From positions 95,186 to 159,185 of the forward strand of contig JAQUMH010000001.1 of the NCBI GenBank assembly GCA_028718185.1: a stretch of DNA of 64,000 bases, in the 5' to 3' direction. This DNA is from Elusimicrobiota bacterium (lineage in GTDB: Bacteria; Elusimicrobiota; UBA8919). Under the pieces are notes generated by a model that ran no database searches, was not told where the DNA came from, and saw only the letters and a program-made list of their open reading frames with translations. Positions 18,038 to 60,080 of the stretch are shown piece after piece. How positions within the stretch are numbered: the first letter of the stretch is position 1; the number at the start of each line of letters is the position of its first letter. Position numbers and translations under genes: made by a program.

Positions 18038-19431
18038 AGTTTTTTTATTTTGGGACCAGATTTTGTATCTTCCACCTCAAATCCCTCTCCTTTAATTTTT
18101 TCTCTCAATTCATCTGAAAGTTTCCAGTTCTTAGATTTTCTTGCCTCTTCACGCTGATTAGCAAGAAGTTTAACAATCTCCGGAATTTCAATTTTTCTTT
18201 CAACCAACAACCCGAAAACATTACAAAGTTCTAAAACCTTGCTTTTATATTCAAAAATAGACTCTTTAATTTCATTTTTGTCCGGTTGCTCAACCAAATC
18301 CTCATAAAAACCATTTAATTTTGTAACAAGCTCATGAATACAAGCCAATCCACCTGATGTATTAAAATCATCATCCATAGATTTAACAAATTCTTTATCA
18401 ATCCCAGTATTTTCAAATACGATATTTTTAGTTATAGGCACTTCTTTTGTCTTCTCTATAATATTAAAAATATTTTCAATAGCACTTTTGGCCTGTTCAA
18501 GCTTATCTTGTGTAAAATCCAGAGGTTGTTTGTAATGTTGTGTCAGCAACATATACCGGACAACCATTGGGTCATATTTTTCAAAAATTTCCCTTAATGT
18601 AAAAAAATTGCCAAGTGATTTTGACATTTTTTCTTTATTTATGGTTACAAACCCATTATGTATCCAGTATTTTACAAACTGTTTTCCAAGTGCTGCTTCT
18701 GATTGCGCAATTTCATTTTCATGATGCGGGAAAATCAGGTCCTGCCCGCCACCGTGTATATCAAATGTTTCATGACCAAACTCATTTAGCGACATTACGG
18801 AACATTCAATATGCCAGCCTGGACGTCCTTTTCCCCAAGTACTGTCCCATGAGGGTTCATTCTCTTTTGCTTTTTTCCAAAGCGCAAAATCCAGCGGATC
18901 ATTTTTTCTCTCATCTACTCCAACTCTTGCTCCACTCCTTAAATTCTCTATATCTCTTTTTGAAAGTTTCCCATAATCCTTAAATTTTCTTACTGAAAAA
19001 TAAACATCACCATCTATGATATAGGCGTAACCATTATCAATTATTTTTTGGATAAATTTCTTTATATCTTCTATTTTTTCAGTTACTTTTGGATATGAAT
19101 CAGCACGCAAAATATTAAGTTTATCCATCTGTTCAAAATATTCATTTATGTATTTTTCTGCCAAATCATTACTCGTTACCCCTAACTCATTACTTCTTTT
19201 TATTATCTTATCATCTATATCAGTGAAATTTTGGATGTATTTAACTTTATAACCTTTATATTTTAAATAACGGCGAATAACATCGAAAACAACATAACAT
19301 CTGGCATGCCCCAAATGAACTTCATCATATGGCGTAACTCCACAAACATACATGTTGATATTTTTACCATTTTTATCAATAGGTATAAATTCTTCTTTTT
19401 TCCCGGATAGCGTATTATAAACTTTTAACAT
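18034..19431 (-). CDS. cysS: Cysteinyl-tRNA synthetase
   Basis: Class I synthetase of 465 residues charging tRNA-Cys. It shows the zinc-ligand cysteine in MYVCGVTPYD, the HIGH-type HLGHAR, GWHIECS, the zinc-ligand HHENEIAQSEA and KMSKSLGN. The C-terminal DALR-like helical domain is complete. The start overlaps ispF by 7 bp and the end overlaps rlmB by 4 bp, giving a coupled ispD-ispF-cysS-rlmB group. Confidence 0.97.
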   Translation of the reverse strand: MLKVYNTLSGKKEEFIPIDKNGKNINMYVCGVTPYDEVHLGHARCYVVFDVIRRYLKYKGYKVKYIQNFTDIDDKIIKRSNELGVTSNDLAEKYINEYFEQMDKLNILRADSYPKVTEKIEDIKKFIQKIIDNGYAYIIDGDVYFSVRKFKDYGKLSKRDIENLRSGARVGVDERKNDPLDFALWKKAKENEPSWDSTWGKGRPGWHIECSVMSLNEFGHETFDIHGGGQDLIFPHHENEIAQSEAALGKQFVKYWIHNGFVTINKEKMSKSLGNFFTLREIFEKYDPMVVRYMLLTQHYKQPLDFTQDKLEQAKSAIENIFNIIEKTKEVPITKNIVFENTGIDKEFVKSMDDDFNTSGGLACIHELVTKLNGFYEDLVEQPDKNEIKESIFEYKSKVLELCNVFGLLVERKIEIPEIVKLLANQREEARKSKNWKLSDELREKIKGEGFEVEDTKSGPKIKKL

Positions 19432-19910
19432 TTTTCAATCAAACATACAGCATAAGCACATATTGCTTTGCCTTTGCCTATATCCCCAATTCCTTCGTTT
19501 GTGGTCGCCTTTACACTTATATTTACATTTGCAACAATTTTCGATATTTTGTTTTTCATCTCTTTAATATATGGAAAAATCTTCGGCTGCTGGGCGACAA
19601 CCATTGAATCGATATTTATTATTCTGTAACCGGCTTTTCTTAATAAATTACATGTTTCTTTAAGTAAAATCAAACTGGAAATGTTTTTATATTTTTTACT
19701 TGTATTAGGAAAATGCTGCCCTATATCACCAAGATTCGATGCACCGAGAAGCGAATCACAAATTGCATGCAAAAGAACATCACCATCAGAATGGGCAAAT
19801 AACCCTTTAGAAAAAGGTATCTTTACACCACCCAACAAAAGAGGCTTGCCTTTGACTAATTTGTGAATATCGTAACCAAAACCGACCCGAATACTGCTAA
19901 ATGCGTTCAT
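19425..19910 (-). CDS. ispF: 2-C-methyl-D-erythritol 2,4-cyclodiphosphate synthase
   Basis: Fifth enzyme of the MEP isoprenoid pathway. The 161 residues contain the metal-binding GYDIH (Asp14, His16), the AHSDGDVLLHAICD motif and the CDP-binding KATTNEGIGDIG. Length and motifs are standard. The start is the ATG at 19910, which lies next to GTTCACGTGTTC-like repeats. The partner gene ispD is upstream but separated by about 300 bp of palindromic repeat DNA, which is unusual for this pair. Confidence 0.96.
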   Translation of the reverse strand: MNAFSSIRVGFGYDIHKLVKGKPLLLGGVKIPFSKGLFAHSDGDVLLHAICDSLLGASNLGDIGQHFPNTSKKYKNISSLILLKETCNLLRKAGYRIINIDSMVVAQQPKIFPYIKEMKNKISKIVANVNISVKATTNEGIGDIGKGKAICAYAVCLIEKC

Positions 19911-19998
19911 GTGTTCACGTGTTCAAATGTTCATGTATTAAAAAACATTTAATTCGTTTCTTTATTAAACATTTTACTTTGACTTCATCGCGGAGCGA

Positions 19999-20095
19999 GG
20001 GAGAAATTTCTGAAGAGCCTGAATTTGCGACTTATTCGTTCCAGGAGCAAATGCTAGAGCGACCTCAAGGGAGCGTCTCGAAGAAATTTACTCCC
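19999..20095. repeat. Palindromic repeat, copy A (divergent)
   Basis: 97-bp structured repeat with terminal GGGAG...CTCCC, then AGAAATTT...AGAAATTT-type arms and an inner GAATTTGC...AGCAAAT stem. It is the divergent member of a family with copies B (20122-20217) and C (55707-55802); the outermost stem differs in sequence but stays complementary. Confidence 0.75.
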
Positions 20096-20121
20096 GTGCA
20101 TATATTTAATATTAGAGCGAA

Positions 20122-20217
20122 GCAAGAAATTTTCGCAGAGCCTAGATTTGCGACTACTCTTTCAAGAGCAAATCTCAGAGCGAGTTGGTGCCGAGCGACT
20201 CAAGAAAATTTACTTGC
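20122..20217. repeat. Palindromic repeat, copy B, overlapping the ispD stop
   Basis: 96-bp palindrome: GCAAG...CTTGC outside, AAATTTTC...GAAAATTT next, and inner AGATTTGC...GCAAATCT. It is 91/96 identical by eye to copy C 35 kb away, and lies 26 bp from copy A. The ispD stop codon at 20210-20212 is inside it, so the last codons of ispD come from the repeat. Confidence 0.85.
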
Positions 20218-20854
20218 GAGCGATATCTTGTTTGGTTGTTATCTTTATATTTTTATAGTCACCTGTTATAACTTTTACTTTTTTACCTAACTTTTCAACA
20301 AGTGCTGAATCATCAGTCGAAAAATATTTAGCTTCAAACGCCTTTTTATATGCTTTCATTATAAGCGAATATTTAAATGTTTGCGGTGTTTGGGCAAGAA
20401 AAATATTTTTTCTTTCAGGAGTAGAAATTACATATCCATTTTTGACAATTTTTACCGTATCTTTAACCGGAACAACCGCAACACAAGCACTGCTTTTTCT
20501 TGCTGTTGAAATACTGTCTTTAATGATTTTATCTGATATGAACGGACGGACCCCGTCATGAATAACAACAATATCCGTATCTGCCGAAAGTGCTGATAAC
20601 CCGTTATACACAGAGTGCTGCCTTGTTGCTCCCCCTGCAATAATTTTAACACGGGTTGAAAAATTAAATTTTCGCTTTAAATCTTCTTTTGGCAAGACAA
20701 CAACTATTTCTTTTATCTGTTGAATTTTTAAAAATATGGAGAGCGTTATTTCCAATACTTGTTTTTTGCCGTCTATCTGAAGCAGAACAAACTGTTTTTT
20801 TGAACCGAACCTCTTACCTCTTCCGGCTGCAACTATAACTGCGGCTATTCTCAT
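20210..20854 (-). CDS. ispD: 2-C-methyl-D-erythritol 4-phosphate cytidylyltransferase
   Basis: Third MEP-pathway enzyme, making CDP-methylerythritol. The 214 residues show the nucleotide-binding VAAGRGKRFGSKKQF near the N-terminus, AGGATRQHSVYNGL, VIHDGVRPF, and the C-terminal TGDYKNIKITTKQD motif. It is a little shorter than usual (about 230). The last few codons and the TAA lie in palindromic repeat copy B, which probably replaced the native C-terminus. It follows the PIN/TRAM gene by 8 bp. Confidence 0.95.
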   Translation of the reverse strand: MRIAAVIVAAGRGKRFGSKKQFVLLQIDGKKQVLEITLSIFLKIQQIKEIVVVLPKEDLKRKFNFSTRVKIIAGGATRQHSVYNGLSALSADTDIVVIHDGVRPFISDKIIKDSISTARKSSACVAVVPVKDTVKIVKNGYVISTPERKNIFLAQTPQTFKYSLIMKAYKKAFEAKYFSTDDSALVEKLGKKVKVITGDYKNIKITTKQDIARK

Positions 20855-52584: not shown

Positions 52585-52608
52585 AGCCGAGCAAGCTCAG
52601 CAACTACA
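52585..52608 (-). repeat. GTAG hairpin d (3' of RAYT gene)
   Basis: Minus strand GTAG (52607-52604) followed by a TGCTGAGC/GCTCGGC-type stem. Nearly the same 25 bp recurs as hairpin e inside the RAYT gene. It overlaps the RAYT stop. Confidence 0.75.
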
Positions 52609-53058
52609 ACTTTCATAAAATTGCTCAAATTTAATATTATCTGCAAGCGGATTGTTTCGAATATATTCTCTAATCTTTGCTAATGCCTTTTCATTTCTTA
52701 TAATATGTTCATAATAATTGGGTTGCCACAGCCGTTTTTGTAGTTGCCAACCTTGGTTGGCATATTTTTTCACAAAAACAGTAGTTTTTGATTTAAACTT
52801 TCTCATAACTTCACCAAGTGTGTATTTACAGTCTTGAAGTATTACAATTAAATGTATATGGTTTGGCATTAATGTGTAATAATCTAATTTTACTCCTCTC
52901 AAATTATTCAGCCGAGCAAGCTCGACAACTACAACTTTTTTAATTTGAGAATTCTCTAAATATGGTTTATTATAATTTGTACATAATGTTATAAAATAAC
53001 ATCCTTCAGTTTTATAATCATAATCTTTTAATCTGATATTTTTTCGTTTGTTTAACAT
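52597..53058 (-). CDS. REP-associated tyrosine transposase (RAYT, Y1/IS200-like)
   Basis: 153 residues with the HUH motif MPNHIHLIV (His67, His69) and the nucleophile region WQPNYYEHIIRN (Tyr115/116), the signature of TnpA-REP proteins, single-strand DNA nickases that act on REP hairpins with a GTAG foot. Two GTAG hairpins lie within the coding sequence and a third at the stop codon. The segment KKVVVVELARLNNL and the segment YANQGWQLQKRL are encoded by those hairpins. It may be the mobiliser of the GTAG family seen around it. Confidence 0.88.
   Translation of the reverse strand: MLNKRKNIRLKDYDYKTEGCYFITLCTNYNKPYLENSQIKKVVVVELARLNNLRGVKLDYYTLMPNHIHLIVILQDCKYTLGEVMRKFKSKTTVFVKKYANQGWQLQKRLWQPNYYEHIIRNEKALAKIREYIRNNPLADNIKFEQFYESCSC
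52739..52763 (+). repeat. GTAG hairpin c (inside RAYT gene)
   Basis: GTAG (52740-52743) followed by stem TGCCAACC/GGTTGGCA. It encodes part of the RAYT protein on the opposite strand. Confidence 0.75.
52910..52933 (-). repeat. GTAG hairpin e (inside RAYT gene)
   Basis: Minus strand GTAG (52932-52929) followed by TCGAGC-TT-GCTCGG. It matches hairpin d except for a two-base swap. Confidence 0.75.
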
Positions 53059-55577: not shown

Positions 55578-55620
55578 CCCCCCTCACCTTTCATCCTCTC
55601 CCCTGCGGGGAGAGGAAATC
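55578..55620. repeat. CCTCTCCCC hairpin at the 5' side of the DUF559 gene
   Basis: CCCCTCACCTTTCATCC then CCTCTCCCC-TGC-GGGGAGAGG, the same unit as at 55125-55225, in direct orientation. Confidence 0.75.
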
Positions 55621-55706
55621 TTTTTAAGAACATTAGACATCAGACCATTAGAACACGCGAACATCAGAACTTAAGAACGCCTTTTCCCCTTCTAATCGTA
55701 AAGCTA

Positions 55707-55802
55707 GCAAAAAATTTTCGCAGAGCCTAGATTTGCGACTACGCTTTCGAGAGCAAATCTCAGAGCGAGTTGGTGCCGAGCGACTCAAGAAAATTTGTTT
55801 GC
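55707..55802. repeat. Palindromic repeat, copy C
   Basis: 96-bp repeat homologous to copy B (20122-20217). The outermost stem is extended here as GCTAGCAAA...TTTGCTAGC (55703-55806). The stop codon of the giant gene lies in this terminal stem. Confidence 0.85.
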
Positions 55803-58800
55803 TAGCGTATTATTCCCAACCTTCCCCTAACCTTCTTTCCATTCTCTGGATTTGTAACCAGATAGATGTACATTCCCCTGGCAACCTTTTCACCGCCGTT
55901 ATTGACCGTTTCCCATTTGTATTCATCTTCAATTACACTGTCTTTATTTCCTTCAAAAACCAGCTCACCGGCTATATTAAATATCTTTATGTTTGCTTTT
56001 GCAGTTAATCTTTTGAACACAATATTTTTACCTTCAACACCGCCATACCTCGAATCACCTTCTTTATACGGGTTCGGATATACAAAAACTTCCGACAGGT
56101 CTTTGGCAGATGATTTCGCAAATATCCGGTAAACACTAAACGAACTTACAGTTGCAGTTACAGTTTTGGCAATTTTATCCAATTGCTGGGCTCCCCCGAC
56201 AATTTCCCATCTTGCTCTAACTTCATTAAGATGAAATATCCTTAACGCATCCTCTAAATCCGACCTTACATCAACACCTTTATACGATAGTACAATTTGT
56301 ACCGGGGATAATAATGCACTACCATCCGATATCTTAAATTCACACGCAGTGTCATTTAAATTATCAAATATTGTATTATTAATAACATACTCCCTCTTCG
56401 CATAAATATCTGCTGTATCTACTACTGTTTTTTTTGCAGGGTCAACCTTAATAATATTTATCATTTTATCAACATTAGTATTCGGCGTTACTTTCACTTT
56501 TACCTCACTGTTAAATCCCGCCTCGATAGTCCAGTCGCCATTACTACCTACTTTATTATTAGCAGCCCAGACAGGACCCGTAGATATTAAATTCTCATAT
56601 AACATATTTCCCGTATTATCCTTTGCAATCACGCAAACATAATATTTGGTATCTGCACTAAGACCTGTCAATTCATAAGTTTTTGTCCCTTTCGGTATGT
56701 CCTTTACAACACCAATCGCAGATTTAGTATCTGAAAATATATTAAACGCATAGTATATCAGGTAGGATGAAACATTAGCCGGCTCGGTATATACCCAACT
56801 GACAACAACACAACCTCCGGCATCGCTTGGCTTATCAATCGCAGTAAGATTTCCTATTATAGCCGGCGGAATAGAAGTAGATGTTACTGTTTCAAAAACA
56901 TTTACTATCGTATCAATATTATCCCAGTTCCTTGCCAATATCCTGCCATAATAAGTCGTGTTATCCGGCAGCCCGGAAACTGTTACCCCGTCACTATCGC
57001 TACGTATGCTTGATGAAGAATATAATGCAGTTGTAAAACCGGCTGTCGTTGATAACTGAACCGTATAATTTGTGTCAGACGGATTATCAGGTACCGATTC
57101 TTTCCACCTCACTGTTATACTGGTTGTAAATACATCACTCCAGTACGGGTTTGGTGCCGAACATAAAGTCGATTTCCAACCCGGGCTTAATGTGGTTGTT
57201 GAATATACATTTCCATACTTTTGGACAATAACTCTCGCAAAATAAGTCGTATTAGGTATTAGAGAAGTAATTGTTGACGTATAAACACCGGATACAGTCG
57301 TGCTTGAATATATATTTGCCCCTTCCACAAAATTAGCGCTGGATAACTCTACTTTACATTCCATATCCGGCTGTTCTGAATGTGTAAATTTTTCCCAACT
57401 TATACTTACACCGGAAATCCCTATACTTGACCACACCGGCTGAATTGCATTAGATAAAGTAGTTTTACAACCGCTTACAGAAACTGTTGAACCTGCACCT
57501 TCCCAGTTCCTTACCGAGACCCTTGCATAATAAGTTGTATCTTCCGATAACCCCGAAACTATTACCCCGTCACTATCGCTTCGGATGCTTGACGAAGAAT
57601 ATATTGTAGCCGTAAAATCATTTGCCGTTGATAACTGAACCGTATAATTTGAATTAAACGGATTATCAGGTGAAGACTCGTTCCACCGGACAGTTATGCT
57701 TGATGTAAACACATCGCCAAAATATGGATTTGGTACCGAGCATAAAGTTGAATTCCAACTATTAAGATTAATAACAGCAAGATTACCGGTTATATTTCCC
57801 GCTATCAACCTTGCGTAATATGTCGTATTAGGTAAAAGTGTATTTATAATTGCAGAATTATTCCCTTTTATTGTTTCTGATGAATAAATTGAACCTGTCC
57901 AATCGCCTCCGGTAGATAATTGAACAGTATATTTAGTCCCCGTCGGATTATTAGTAGTATCATTCCAAATAACCGTCACCGAAGAAACAAATAATCCTCC
58001 CCAACTAACCCCGTCCGGTTTTTGATAATATTTTATAGTTACATCCTCAATAACCGGTGTCAGTGACGAATTTAAAGTTGTAAACGTTGCAAAATACTGG
58101 ACATACCTGCCTGATAAATTAACGTCTGCATTGTTTGAAACTTCAACCCAGACAGGAACCTCATCATTAATTCCAAACAAAGTATTAGACGCCCTGAATA
58201 AAACAAAAATACTTGTTTCAGCAATTTGTGAAACAGGCGACCAGCTTACAGTAGATATTCTCGTATCGGCTGAGCCGGTATCAATGACATTGGATTTATA
58301 ACTGCACGGGTAAGTCTGAAACCCTGAAGGAAATTTTCCTGAAAAATAAGCCGGATTTGTTGAACCTGAAAGTGAAGAACAATCCAGACGAATCCTTCCA
58401 ACCCCGCCGCCACCGCCTCCACCCGCAAATAAAGAAGAAGGAGAAACCGGACCGCCGACTGAATTTATTGAACCTGCTGTTATTGTTCCGGCAATTAAAT
58501 ATATTGAACCGCCTGAACCGCTTCCTCCACCCGCATTTAGAAGCAAAGAAGAAGAACCGTTATCACCGTTAGATAATATACTCCCGATATTTGAAATTGA
58601 ATTAGAATAAATTAAAATAATCCCGCCGCCACTCCCACCTTCTGAATAGTTGTCTCCACTACCGCCTGTGCTACCGGCACCGCCCCCACTCCCAAAAAAT
58701 AACTTAGTAACATCCGGCGACCCATATAAACCCCCACCACCGCCTCCACCTCCTCCTCCAATGCCACCGCTATTACCTCCACCACCGCCACCGGTAAGAG

Positions 58801-59893
58801 CGCCATTCCCAGCTAAACCACCATTTGAGCCAATACCTTTAGAGCCAGCATTACCACCACTTCCATTATTAGCACCACCACCGCCCCCTGCAGAAACTAA
58901 TGTCGAACCACCTGTCCCGCCAACTCCTCCGTCAGTTCCATTATCATCACCGGCTCCGGCTCCACCGCCACCACCCGCATACCCACCGCCACCACCACCA
59001 CCGCCACCATCGTCAACTCCTGAATCAGCATACCCGCCGCCGCCACCACCACCACGACTTCCGCCTAATGTTGCAGAACCATTCCCCGCCCCTGTCCCAC
59101 CACCTGAAGACCCAAGCTGAGTCCTCTCTCCGCCTTTCCCTGAATAACCGTCAAAACTTTCCCCGTTTTGCCCGCCGAACAAACCCGGAACTGAACTCCC
59201 TCCGCCCCTATAACCTTTCCAGCTGACATCAATACTTCCGCTTCCCCCGATGGTTACTGTGCCTGCCGCCCTGAAAACAACCAAACCGCTTTTTTCACCA
59301 TCCCACTCGGAACAAAAAAAGTCATTGTTAACATTCACATTATTCCAGTTAGGCACTCTTTGAATTGATATTTTCTGGTTAGATAAATCGCTTCTTAAAT
59401 CTGTATGTGTCGAACCATACACCCTCTGTATATCTGAAATAAGAATAAGATTTTTCCCATCCACTTCCTTTACTCTTAAAAACTCGTAATTACCGACATT
59501 CCCGTAATCAGTCGTACACCCCTGCAAATTAATCAGGATTATCTCATCCGACGCCACTATCCCGAACGGAACAGACGAACAAGTAACCGATGAAACATAG
59601 ACACCTGTAACAGAATAGTTTACCCCATCCGGAAAAGTTCTCCCGCCTGACAGTACATCCGTATTTATATTTTCCGGCACACCAACAACAACAGAACCAT
59701 CCTTCCCTGTCCCGCGCCAGTCCAAAGAAAGATTTGCCAACACCCCCGTCCCGGAAGACCTCACCAAATTAAACCCCCCATCCCCCCAGTCCGCATCCGA
59801 TGTTTCTGTAAAAGTTTGCACAGAATACAGCACACTATTACTTAACGATAAAAGAAACCCAACAACCAAAACCAAAAATATTTTTTTATTCAT
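55802..59893 (-). CDS. Giant Gly-rich/Fn3 exported protein with T9SS-like C-terminal domain
   Basis: 1363 residues from the ATG at 59893, signal peptide MNKKIFLVLVVGFLLSLSNS. Residues about 230-520 form a Gly-run region (many GGGGG tracts, ALK/PGRS-like). Four Fn3-like units of 100-110 residues follow, each with a YTVQLST...TTYYAR pattern, then a further Fn3 unit. The C-terminus has VYPNPYKEG and GxYIYLVT motifs of T9SS type A (or FlgD-like) sorting domains. Likely a surface or secreted adhesin-like protein. The frame extends to 60055, but that extension is translated tandem GTAG repeats. Confidence 0.88.
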   Translation of the reverse strand: MNKKIFLVLVVGFLLSLSNSVLYSVQTFTETSDADWGDGGFNLVRSSGTGVLANLSLDWRGTGKDGSVVVGVPENINTDVLSGGRTFPDGVNYSVTGVYVSSVTCSSVPFGIVASDEIILINLQGCTTDYGNVGNYEFLRVKEVDGKNLILISDIQRVYGSTHTDLRSDLSNQKISIQRVPNWNNVNVNNDFFCSEWDGEKSGLVVFRAAGTVTIGGSGSIDVSWKGYRGGGSSVPGLFGGQNGESFDGYSGKGGERTQLGSSGGGTGAGNGSATLGGSRGGGGGGGYADSGVDDGGGGGGGGGYAGGGGGAGAGDDNGTDGGVGGTGGSTLVSAGGGGGANNGSGGNAGSKGIGSNGGLAGNGALTGGGGGGNSGGIGGGGGGGGGGLYGSPDVTKLFFGSGGGAGSTGGSGDNYSEGGSGGGIILIYSNSISNIGSILSNGDNGSSSLLLNAGGGSGSGGSIYLIAGTITAGSINSVGGPVSPSSLFAGGGGGGGVGRIRLDCSSLSGSTNPAYFSGKFPSGFQTYPCSYKSNVIDTGSADTRISTVSWSPVSQIAETSIFVLFRASNTLFGINDEVPVWVEVSNNADVNLSGRYVQYFATFTTLNSSLTPVIEDVTIKYYQKPDGVSWGGLFVSSVTVIWNDTTNNPTGTKYTVQLSTGGDWTGSIYSSETIKGNNSAIINTLLPNTTYYARLIAGNITGNLAVINLNSWNSTLCSVPNPYFGDVFTSSITVRWNESSPDNPFNSNYTVQLSTANDFTATIYSSSSIRSDSDGVIVSGLSEDTTYYARVSVRNWEGAGSTVSVSGCKTTLSNAIQPVWSSIGISGVSISWEKFTHSEQPDMECKVELSSANFVEGANIYSSTTVSGVYTSTITSLIPNTTYFARVIVQKYGNVYSTTTLSPGWKSTLCSAPNPYWSDVFTTSITVRWKESVPDNPSDTNYTVQLSTTAGFTTALYSSSSIRSDSDGVTVSGLPDNTTYYGRILARNWDNIDTIVNVFETVTSTSIPPAIIGNLTAIDKPSDAGGCVVVSWVYTEPANVSSYLIYYAFNIFSDTKSAIGVVKDIPKGTKTYELTGLSADTKYYVCVIAKDNTGNMLYENLISTGPVWAANNKVGSNGDWTIEAGFNSEVKVKVTPNTNVDKMINIIKVDPAKKTVVDTADIYAKREYVINNTIFDNLNDTACEFKISDGSALLSPVQIVLSYKGVDVRSDLEDALRIFHLNEVRARWEIVGGAQQLDKIAKTVTATVSSFSVYRIFAKSSAKDLSEVFVYPNPYKEGDSRYGGVEGKNIVFKRLTAKANIKIFNIAGELVFEGNKDSVIEDEYKWETVNNGGEKVARGMYIYLVTNPENGKKVRGRLGIIR

Positions 59894-59909
59894 TGTTTTA
59901 TATAAAACC

Positions 59910-60027
59910 TGTAGCCGCACCGCCTTGCGGTGCCCAATACTCCCCACCTTGCCAATGTAACCACACCGCCTCGCGCTGCCCAATATTCCCCACCTTATCA
60001 ATGCAGTCGCACCGCCTTGCGGTGCCC
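59910..60027 (+). repeat. Three tandem 46-bp GTAG-hairpin units (f, g, h)
   Basis: Units start at GTAG 59911, GTAA 59957 and GCAG 60003, exactly 46 bp apart. Each has a hairpin CACCGCC...GGCGGTG or variant followed by CCAATACTCCCCACC. They occupy the 5' flank of the giant gene. Confidence 0.82.
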
Positions 60028-60080
60028 TAACACATTCCCCAATTAAGCTTGCCAAGCAGACTGTGTCGTAAACTACAATT

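Follow-up and report, generated by a model that had tools for sequence, protein, structure and literature searches.

Small structured repeats between stop codon and next start in Elusimicrobiota operons, a probable superfamily of non-autonomous mobile elements

Judged by their described properties, the known systems that appear closest to the repeats analysed here are YPAL/RU-2, ERIC, BOX and RUP (PMC2229807, PMC3049150). YPAL/RU-2 of Yersinia resembles them in being small (~168 bp) and intergenic, in having internal inverted repeats and no TA ends, and in showing variable target duplications (3–26 bp) and sites that are filled in one genome and empty in a relative (PMC2229807). ERIC/RU-1 (~127 bp) likewise occupies transcribed intergenic regions and in Yersinia affects mRNA in a manner that depends on its orientation (PMC2229807), and BOX and RUP of Streptococcus pneumoniae are likewise structured, typically <200 bp, present at ~100 copies per genome and often clustered or nested (PMC3049150). 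The REP/REPIN elements associated with RAYT are also palindromic, intergenic and dispersed, with complementary changes.

The present repeats nevertheless differ from each of these. YPAL, compared here by its described properties alone, targets dyad symmetries, whereas these repeats have an A-rich target with a stop/start codon junction and an orientation that follows the operon. ERIC has been classed among the MITEs, which mostly end in TA; the duplications here are of ~9 bp and the ends are different. BOX and RUP are over-represented between convergent genes, whereas these repeats lie almost only between co-directional genes, and RUP has a candidate IS partner, of which none was found here. 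REPs are 20–40 bp long and border rayt genes, and in most of them one end bears a GTAG-type or CGTC motif; the elements here lack these defining features of REP/RAYT systems (PMC2817692, PMC3733652), having a ~117-bp unit, ends AGCGAG/GAGCGA and no rayt link. In common with MITEs, they are shorter than ~200 bp, dispersed and non-coding, with target-site duplication and empty sites; individual sites vary, one being without duplication. A limited literature search returned no description of these repeats.

Copies in the window and their family

The window, by which we mean the whole 64,000-nucleotide stretch analysed, contains three copies (A, B and C), with the following features.

19985..20102, plus strand: copy A, type I, GGGAG/CTCCC outer stem (alignment and covariance-model match)
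19999..20011, plus strand: 5' arm of the outer stem of A, GGGAGAAATTTCT, partner 20082-20095 (sequence)
20023..20052, plus strand: hairpin 1 of A, ATTTGC...GCAAAT (sequence)
20082..20095, plus strand: 3' arm of the outer stem of A, AGAAATTTACTCCC (sequence)
20108..20224, plus strand: copy B, type I variant, GCAAG/CTTGC outer stem (alignment, covariance model)
20122..20134, plus strand: 5' arm of the outer stem of B (sequence)
20204..20217, plus strand: 3' arm of the outer stem of B (sequence)
55693..55809, plus strand: copy C, type I variant, GCAAA/TTTGC outer stem (alignment, covariance model)
55707..55719, plus strand: 5' arm of the outer stem of C (sequence)
55789..55802, plus strand: 3' arm of the outer stem of C (sequence)
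19425..19910, minus strand: ispF, downstream of copies B/A in gene sense (Pfam YgbB, 6e-63)
20210..20854, minus strand: ispD, upstream of copies B/A in gene sense (Pfam IspD, 4.5e-61)
55802..60055, minus strand: fn3/CHU_C surface protein gene, 1417 aa (TAG stop at the edge of copy C)

An earlier note on this DNA had described A, B and C as sharing a 96-bp fold; the repeats overrun those borders and are ~117 bp each. Its account of their divergence was accurate. Copies B and C (20122-20217 vs 55707-55802) differ at exactly 5 of 96 sites, and the compensated change in the outer stem is a single pair, position 5 G to A with position 92 C to T, which converts GCAAG/CTTGC into GCAAA/TTTGC; the remaining differences are at positions 37, 43 and 91. 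The GGGAG/CTCCC stem was found in A as described. In gene sense the order is ispD, copies B and A, ispF, with A and B in a tandem arrangement that recurs at loci L009, L010 and L012. Copy B holds the final codons of IspD (I-A-R-K-stop, from the translated C-terminus) together with its TAA stop, the distance from the ispF start to copy A is 79 nt, and the edge of copy C provides the TAG stop of the fn3/CHU_C gene (CGC TAG).

The region had 39 BLAST matches in the 3.03-Mb assembly of the window's genome (G000), far above chance. The genome-wide collection and covariance model that the note had called for, built from 35 copies, gave 45 matches in G000, 76 in Elusimicrobia bacterium UBA4817 (G003) and 55 in Elusimicrobia NC_groundwater_1671 (G006), both of the same family as G000. 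There were 2–11 matches each in G001, G002, G005, G007 and G008, and 0 in G004; related genomes differ greatly in copy number. Among 198 genomes of the phylum, with G000–G008 set aside, the sole scoring copies were one weak copy each in G052 and G101. A phage or plasmid origin was rejected, as no element matched in the viral contigs, phages or plasmids searched. One short copy (L095:9795-9847) has NN between its two arms in the public assembly, which suggests that the palindrome disturbs assembly and that copy counts from MAGs are perhaps low.

Elements are ~117–130 bp long, occur in dozens of copies, and fold into two hairpins enclosed by an outer stem, the whole being bounded by short conserved ends, AGCGAG ... 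GAGCGA. These ends are common to types that are unrelated in sequence. Type II copies (interior CCTTGAGGAGCGACT...) lie beside type I in G003 and G006; type III has an unrelated interior and ends AGCGAGG...CCGAGCGA with the same plan of outer stem and hairpins, in which 25 of 35 pairs show at least two Watson-Crick types across 18 full copies. Type III (GTTGTTGAGCAGAACTTCACGGAG...) is found at L108:7686-7802, L199:5387-5504, L212:6433-6550 and elsewhere, adjoining a truncated type I copy at L108 and L212. The inverted arms are subterminal and the extreme ends variable; the gene-proximal end is T/C-rich and variable, and the termini are not clear terminal inverted repeats. Stops close each reading frame in most copies, by which a coding element (a mini-ORF from the duplicated ATG) was rejected. 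Deletion derivatives occur, with L105 collapsed between GAGCGA repeats and L093:7530 reduced to the outer stem alone. Other repeats have entered some elements: hairpin 1 is interrupted in some by a palindromic repeat, CGACGAAGTCGTTGCGAGG...GATTGCTTCGTCG, and others contain inserted GC-rich mini-palindromes (CCTGCCTGCCGGCAGGCAGG and similar); loci with inserted palindromic repeats include L043:275-448, L145:2354-2561 and L148:4612-4653.

Empty sites and placement within operons

Several copies have an orthologous empty site when G003 is compared with G006. In the clearest case (L129:8613/L101), TTTCATTTT stands on both sides of the element and once in the empty site; at L133:2813/L118 TCATTTTTT is likewise found at both borders of the element but as a single copy in the empty site, and ATTCATTT is duplicated at L099:3490/L142. 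The empty site of L108:3381/L145 is clean and without duplication, and L111:7994 has 17 matching bases instead of 9. In a registered test in which right flanks were permuted (89 copies, 2000 permutations), flanking repeats of at least 9 bp in register were present at 13 of 89 copies compared with a permuted mean of 3.6, a count reached in 0/2000 permutations; an unregistered direct-repeat test was mildly above shuffles at most, and most copies now have no visible duplication. Different types occupy some orthologous sites of G003 and G006 (L124/L121, L098/L137, L094/L145 and L108:933/L145), which a single insertion each does not simply explain. The elements are mobile. In a few filled sites (L140, L142) there is a hint that the element has brought in a new purine-rich SD-like stretch.

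Placement was scored on simple ORF calls on MAGs. Both neighbouring genes ran opposite to the plus strand of the element at 31 of 40 copies in G000, 73 of 89 in G003 and G006, and 10 of 14 in the others, and the reverse arrangement was seen at 3, 7 and 0 copies, respectively (114 vs 10 overall). Both element orientations occur within one 20-kb stretch, each usually fitting the local genes; thus orientation seems to depend on the direction of the genes and not on that of replication. Where the upstream ORF had at least 120 codons, and with offsets measured from the CGCTC anchor, its stop ended at -5 to 0 in 23/29 copies in G000, 57/74 in G003 and G006, and 9/13 in the others. This offset was mostly -4 or -1 and never -2, and a stop at -1 was TAG in 16 of 16 copies in G003 and G006, where TAG makes up 13% of stops genome-wide. 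The ATG of the next gene, on the strand opposite to the element, was found at 77 of the 89 G003 and G006 copies, with a peak at 24–26 nt; the distance was often longer in G000. Simple GAACATTAGAAC / AACTCTAAAACTC-like runs lie between element and downstream start in the window (19910-19985 and 55620-55680) and in the left flanks of L014, L025, L028 and L030 in G000, and may be the cause of this longer spacing. Overall, operons have been colonised without visible breakage, the elements lying almost exactly between the stop codon and the next start region. Downstream genes that were sampled had varied housekeeping roles (SecF, AtpF, GroEL, KsgA, PGI and others) and no common theme, and their housekeeping nature argues against a regulon.

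Pairing and the strand that folds

Covariation was measured on 35 copies in a MAFFT alignment made blind to structure. Cells of the alignment were paired in 92.2% of cases compared with 86.9% in shuffles, and 69 cells were changed on both sides compared with 23, with 0/500 shuffles equal. The covariation score of the hand-drawn structure was 0.216 compared with 0.111 when shuffled (0/500), and slid registers were all far worse than the true one. The fold is under constraint, as its pairing beats every shuffle and slide. Double-sided changes affected 11 of 26 RNAalifold pairs and 10 of the 28 pairs of the slightly larger hand-drawn structure, and the main source of the signal was the outer stem, in which columns 18-113 are GC, CG or UA, 19-112 AU or GC, 21-110 GC or AU, and 28-102 CG or UA. 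Among these 35 copies hairpin 1 was nearly invariant and so gave no covariation signal, and the apical part of hairpin 2, as drawn, was without support.

Pairing could also be kept with no selection on structure if one arm were copied onto the other, by palindrome correction at cruciforms or hairpins. The distant single-copy relative found at an orthologous locus of G101 and G052 (L192:5796-5913 and L193:6244-6366) fits such copying, as the two copies differ by three double-arm changes with zero stem mismatches and the orientation of the element against its flanks is reversed from one species to the other; this relative has the same core and another outer stem of ~30 bp. Among G000 copies with at most 10 differences, however, one-arm changes exceeded two-arm changes 21 to 7, as stepwise compensation predicts, and we consider arm copying improbable.

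A more serious candidate is an intercistronic RNA element that folds in the operon mRNA, sets the stability, processing or coupling of the two cistrons, and has spread because it is useful. Orientation fixed relative to transcription, a position between stop codon and RBS, and conserved pairing all agree with this, and ERIC of Yersinia is co-transcribed with an orientation-dependent effect on mRNA stability (PMC2229807). Wobble pairs, by contrast, gave no support for structural selection at the mRNA level. They were rare and were counted on the aligned strand, which is antisense to the genes, so that A-C there corresponds to G-U in mRNA; G-U and A-C numbered 12 and 9 in one alignment (A1) and 33 and 15 in a second (A2) that, having been fitted to the model, is biased in its favour. 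Thus, mRNA-sense G-U was not enriched in either. The predicted consensus fold was also weaker on the mRNA strand than on the antisense strand (-12.5 vs -18.1, and in a second case -36.3 vs -43.0), and elements are present or absent before the same gene in sister genomes, the genes having no common theme. That the strand predicted to fold better is antisense to the genes points weakly to a DNA-level or antisense role over an mRNA element, and, given the wobble and stability results, what maintains pairing could be a process acting on DNA, for example recognition of one strand in folded form during transposition. We regard the RNA element as unlikely, if still worth weighing.

Known RNA families were rejected separately: a tRNA was the sole Rfam match in the window, and a search of three element loci with the Rfam covariance models, allowing E values up to 1, gave no match within the elements. 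The two parts of the earlier note's claim thus fared differently. Retention of pairing despite sequence change was strongly borne out in the larger sample; the structural RNA it implied was not demonstrated. The elements are mobile intergenic repeats with empty sites in relatives, and their wobbles do not favour the mRNA strand.

Candidate machinery and the proposed origin

The window carries one gene of a possible mobilising enzyme.

52597-53058, minus strand: Y1_Tnp (RAYT-like) gene, one of seven in G000

The elements could be REP/REPIN sequences moved by the RAYT (Y1) transposases of these genomes, which number seven in G000, 4–5 in G003, G006 and G007, and six in G004; REPs likewise keep their palindromes through complementary changes (PMC2817692). 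Across the 28 loci examined, however, which comprised Y1 loci and a single RT locus, no element came closer than ~1.5 kb, and several RAYT genes in related genomes are flanked by a different repeat of GGGGACGGAGG type. In addition, G004 has its six Y1 genes and zero elements, whereas G008 has elements and no Y1 match, and the IS200/IS605 family makes no larger target duplications (PMC2817692). As the Y1 genes carry other repeats and not this element, mobilisation by RAYT was rejected as very unlikely.

Insertion at T-tracts through target-primed reverse transcription, as a SINE-like retroposon, would agree with the single orientation relative to a T-rich target, the target duplications and the A-rich gene-proximal end. 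An RVT_1 reverse transcriptase was absent from G003, G006 and G007 and present once in G000; because G003 and G006, the genomes with most copies, have no such gene, this origin was also set aside and seems barely credible. Searches for the DDE families PF01609, PF13358 and PF00872 returned few or no genes (none of the three in G000, PF00872 absent) and no candidate. Half-element searches recovered only truncated copies, nested repeats or known copies and no autonomous longer copy, and no element half lay beside a transposase gene in the stretches examined.

We consider it fairly probable that these repeats form a superfamily of small, non-coding, non-autonomous mobile elements, similar to MITEs and YPAL, that insert between co-directional genes with a ~9-bp duplication. 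This explanation draws on direct observations: the sequence is repeated, its pairing is constrained, filled and empty sites both exist, duplications are in excess, and the copies have a characteristic placement and orientation. From these we infer non-autonomy, recognition of the fold at the DNA level, and placement caused by target preference together with purifying selection. Insertion would occur at an A-rich target (AAAAATRA in gene sense) at the junction of two co-directional genes, duplicating ~9 bp, and the machinery would probably recognise the fold on one DNA strand. Recognition of the fold is suggested by the types sharing ends and fold but not sequence, and it would let arm sequences drift while pairing is kept. 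Such A-rich sites are frequent where genes adjoin in compact, AT-rich genomes, and insertion elsewhere would break genes. Surviving insertions would have one orientation and lie between the upstream stop and the downstream start region. The element end often supplies a TAG stop, the duplication would restore the ATG, and the stop-codon offset would follow if the duplicated target ended in TAA or TGA. A bolder version, which we offer tentatively as a possibility, is that putative fold-recognising machinery is aimed at gene ends (an A-rich run ending in a stop codon), and that insertions restore stop and start region so that operons keep working; its mobile elements would form a class whose types have ends and fold, but no sequence, in common.

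These repeats also carry a warning, since compensatory changes in a repeat need not imply a functional RNA. Accounts of small structured bacterial repeats usually place them anywhere between genes, whereas here placement is precise to the stop codon, orientation follows the operon, and different types occupy the same kind of place. The elements thus provide a clean system in which to ask whether a mobile element can be aimed at translation signals or selection alone filters its insertions, and whether transposon ends can be set by a fold instead of a sequence.
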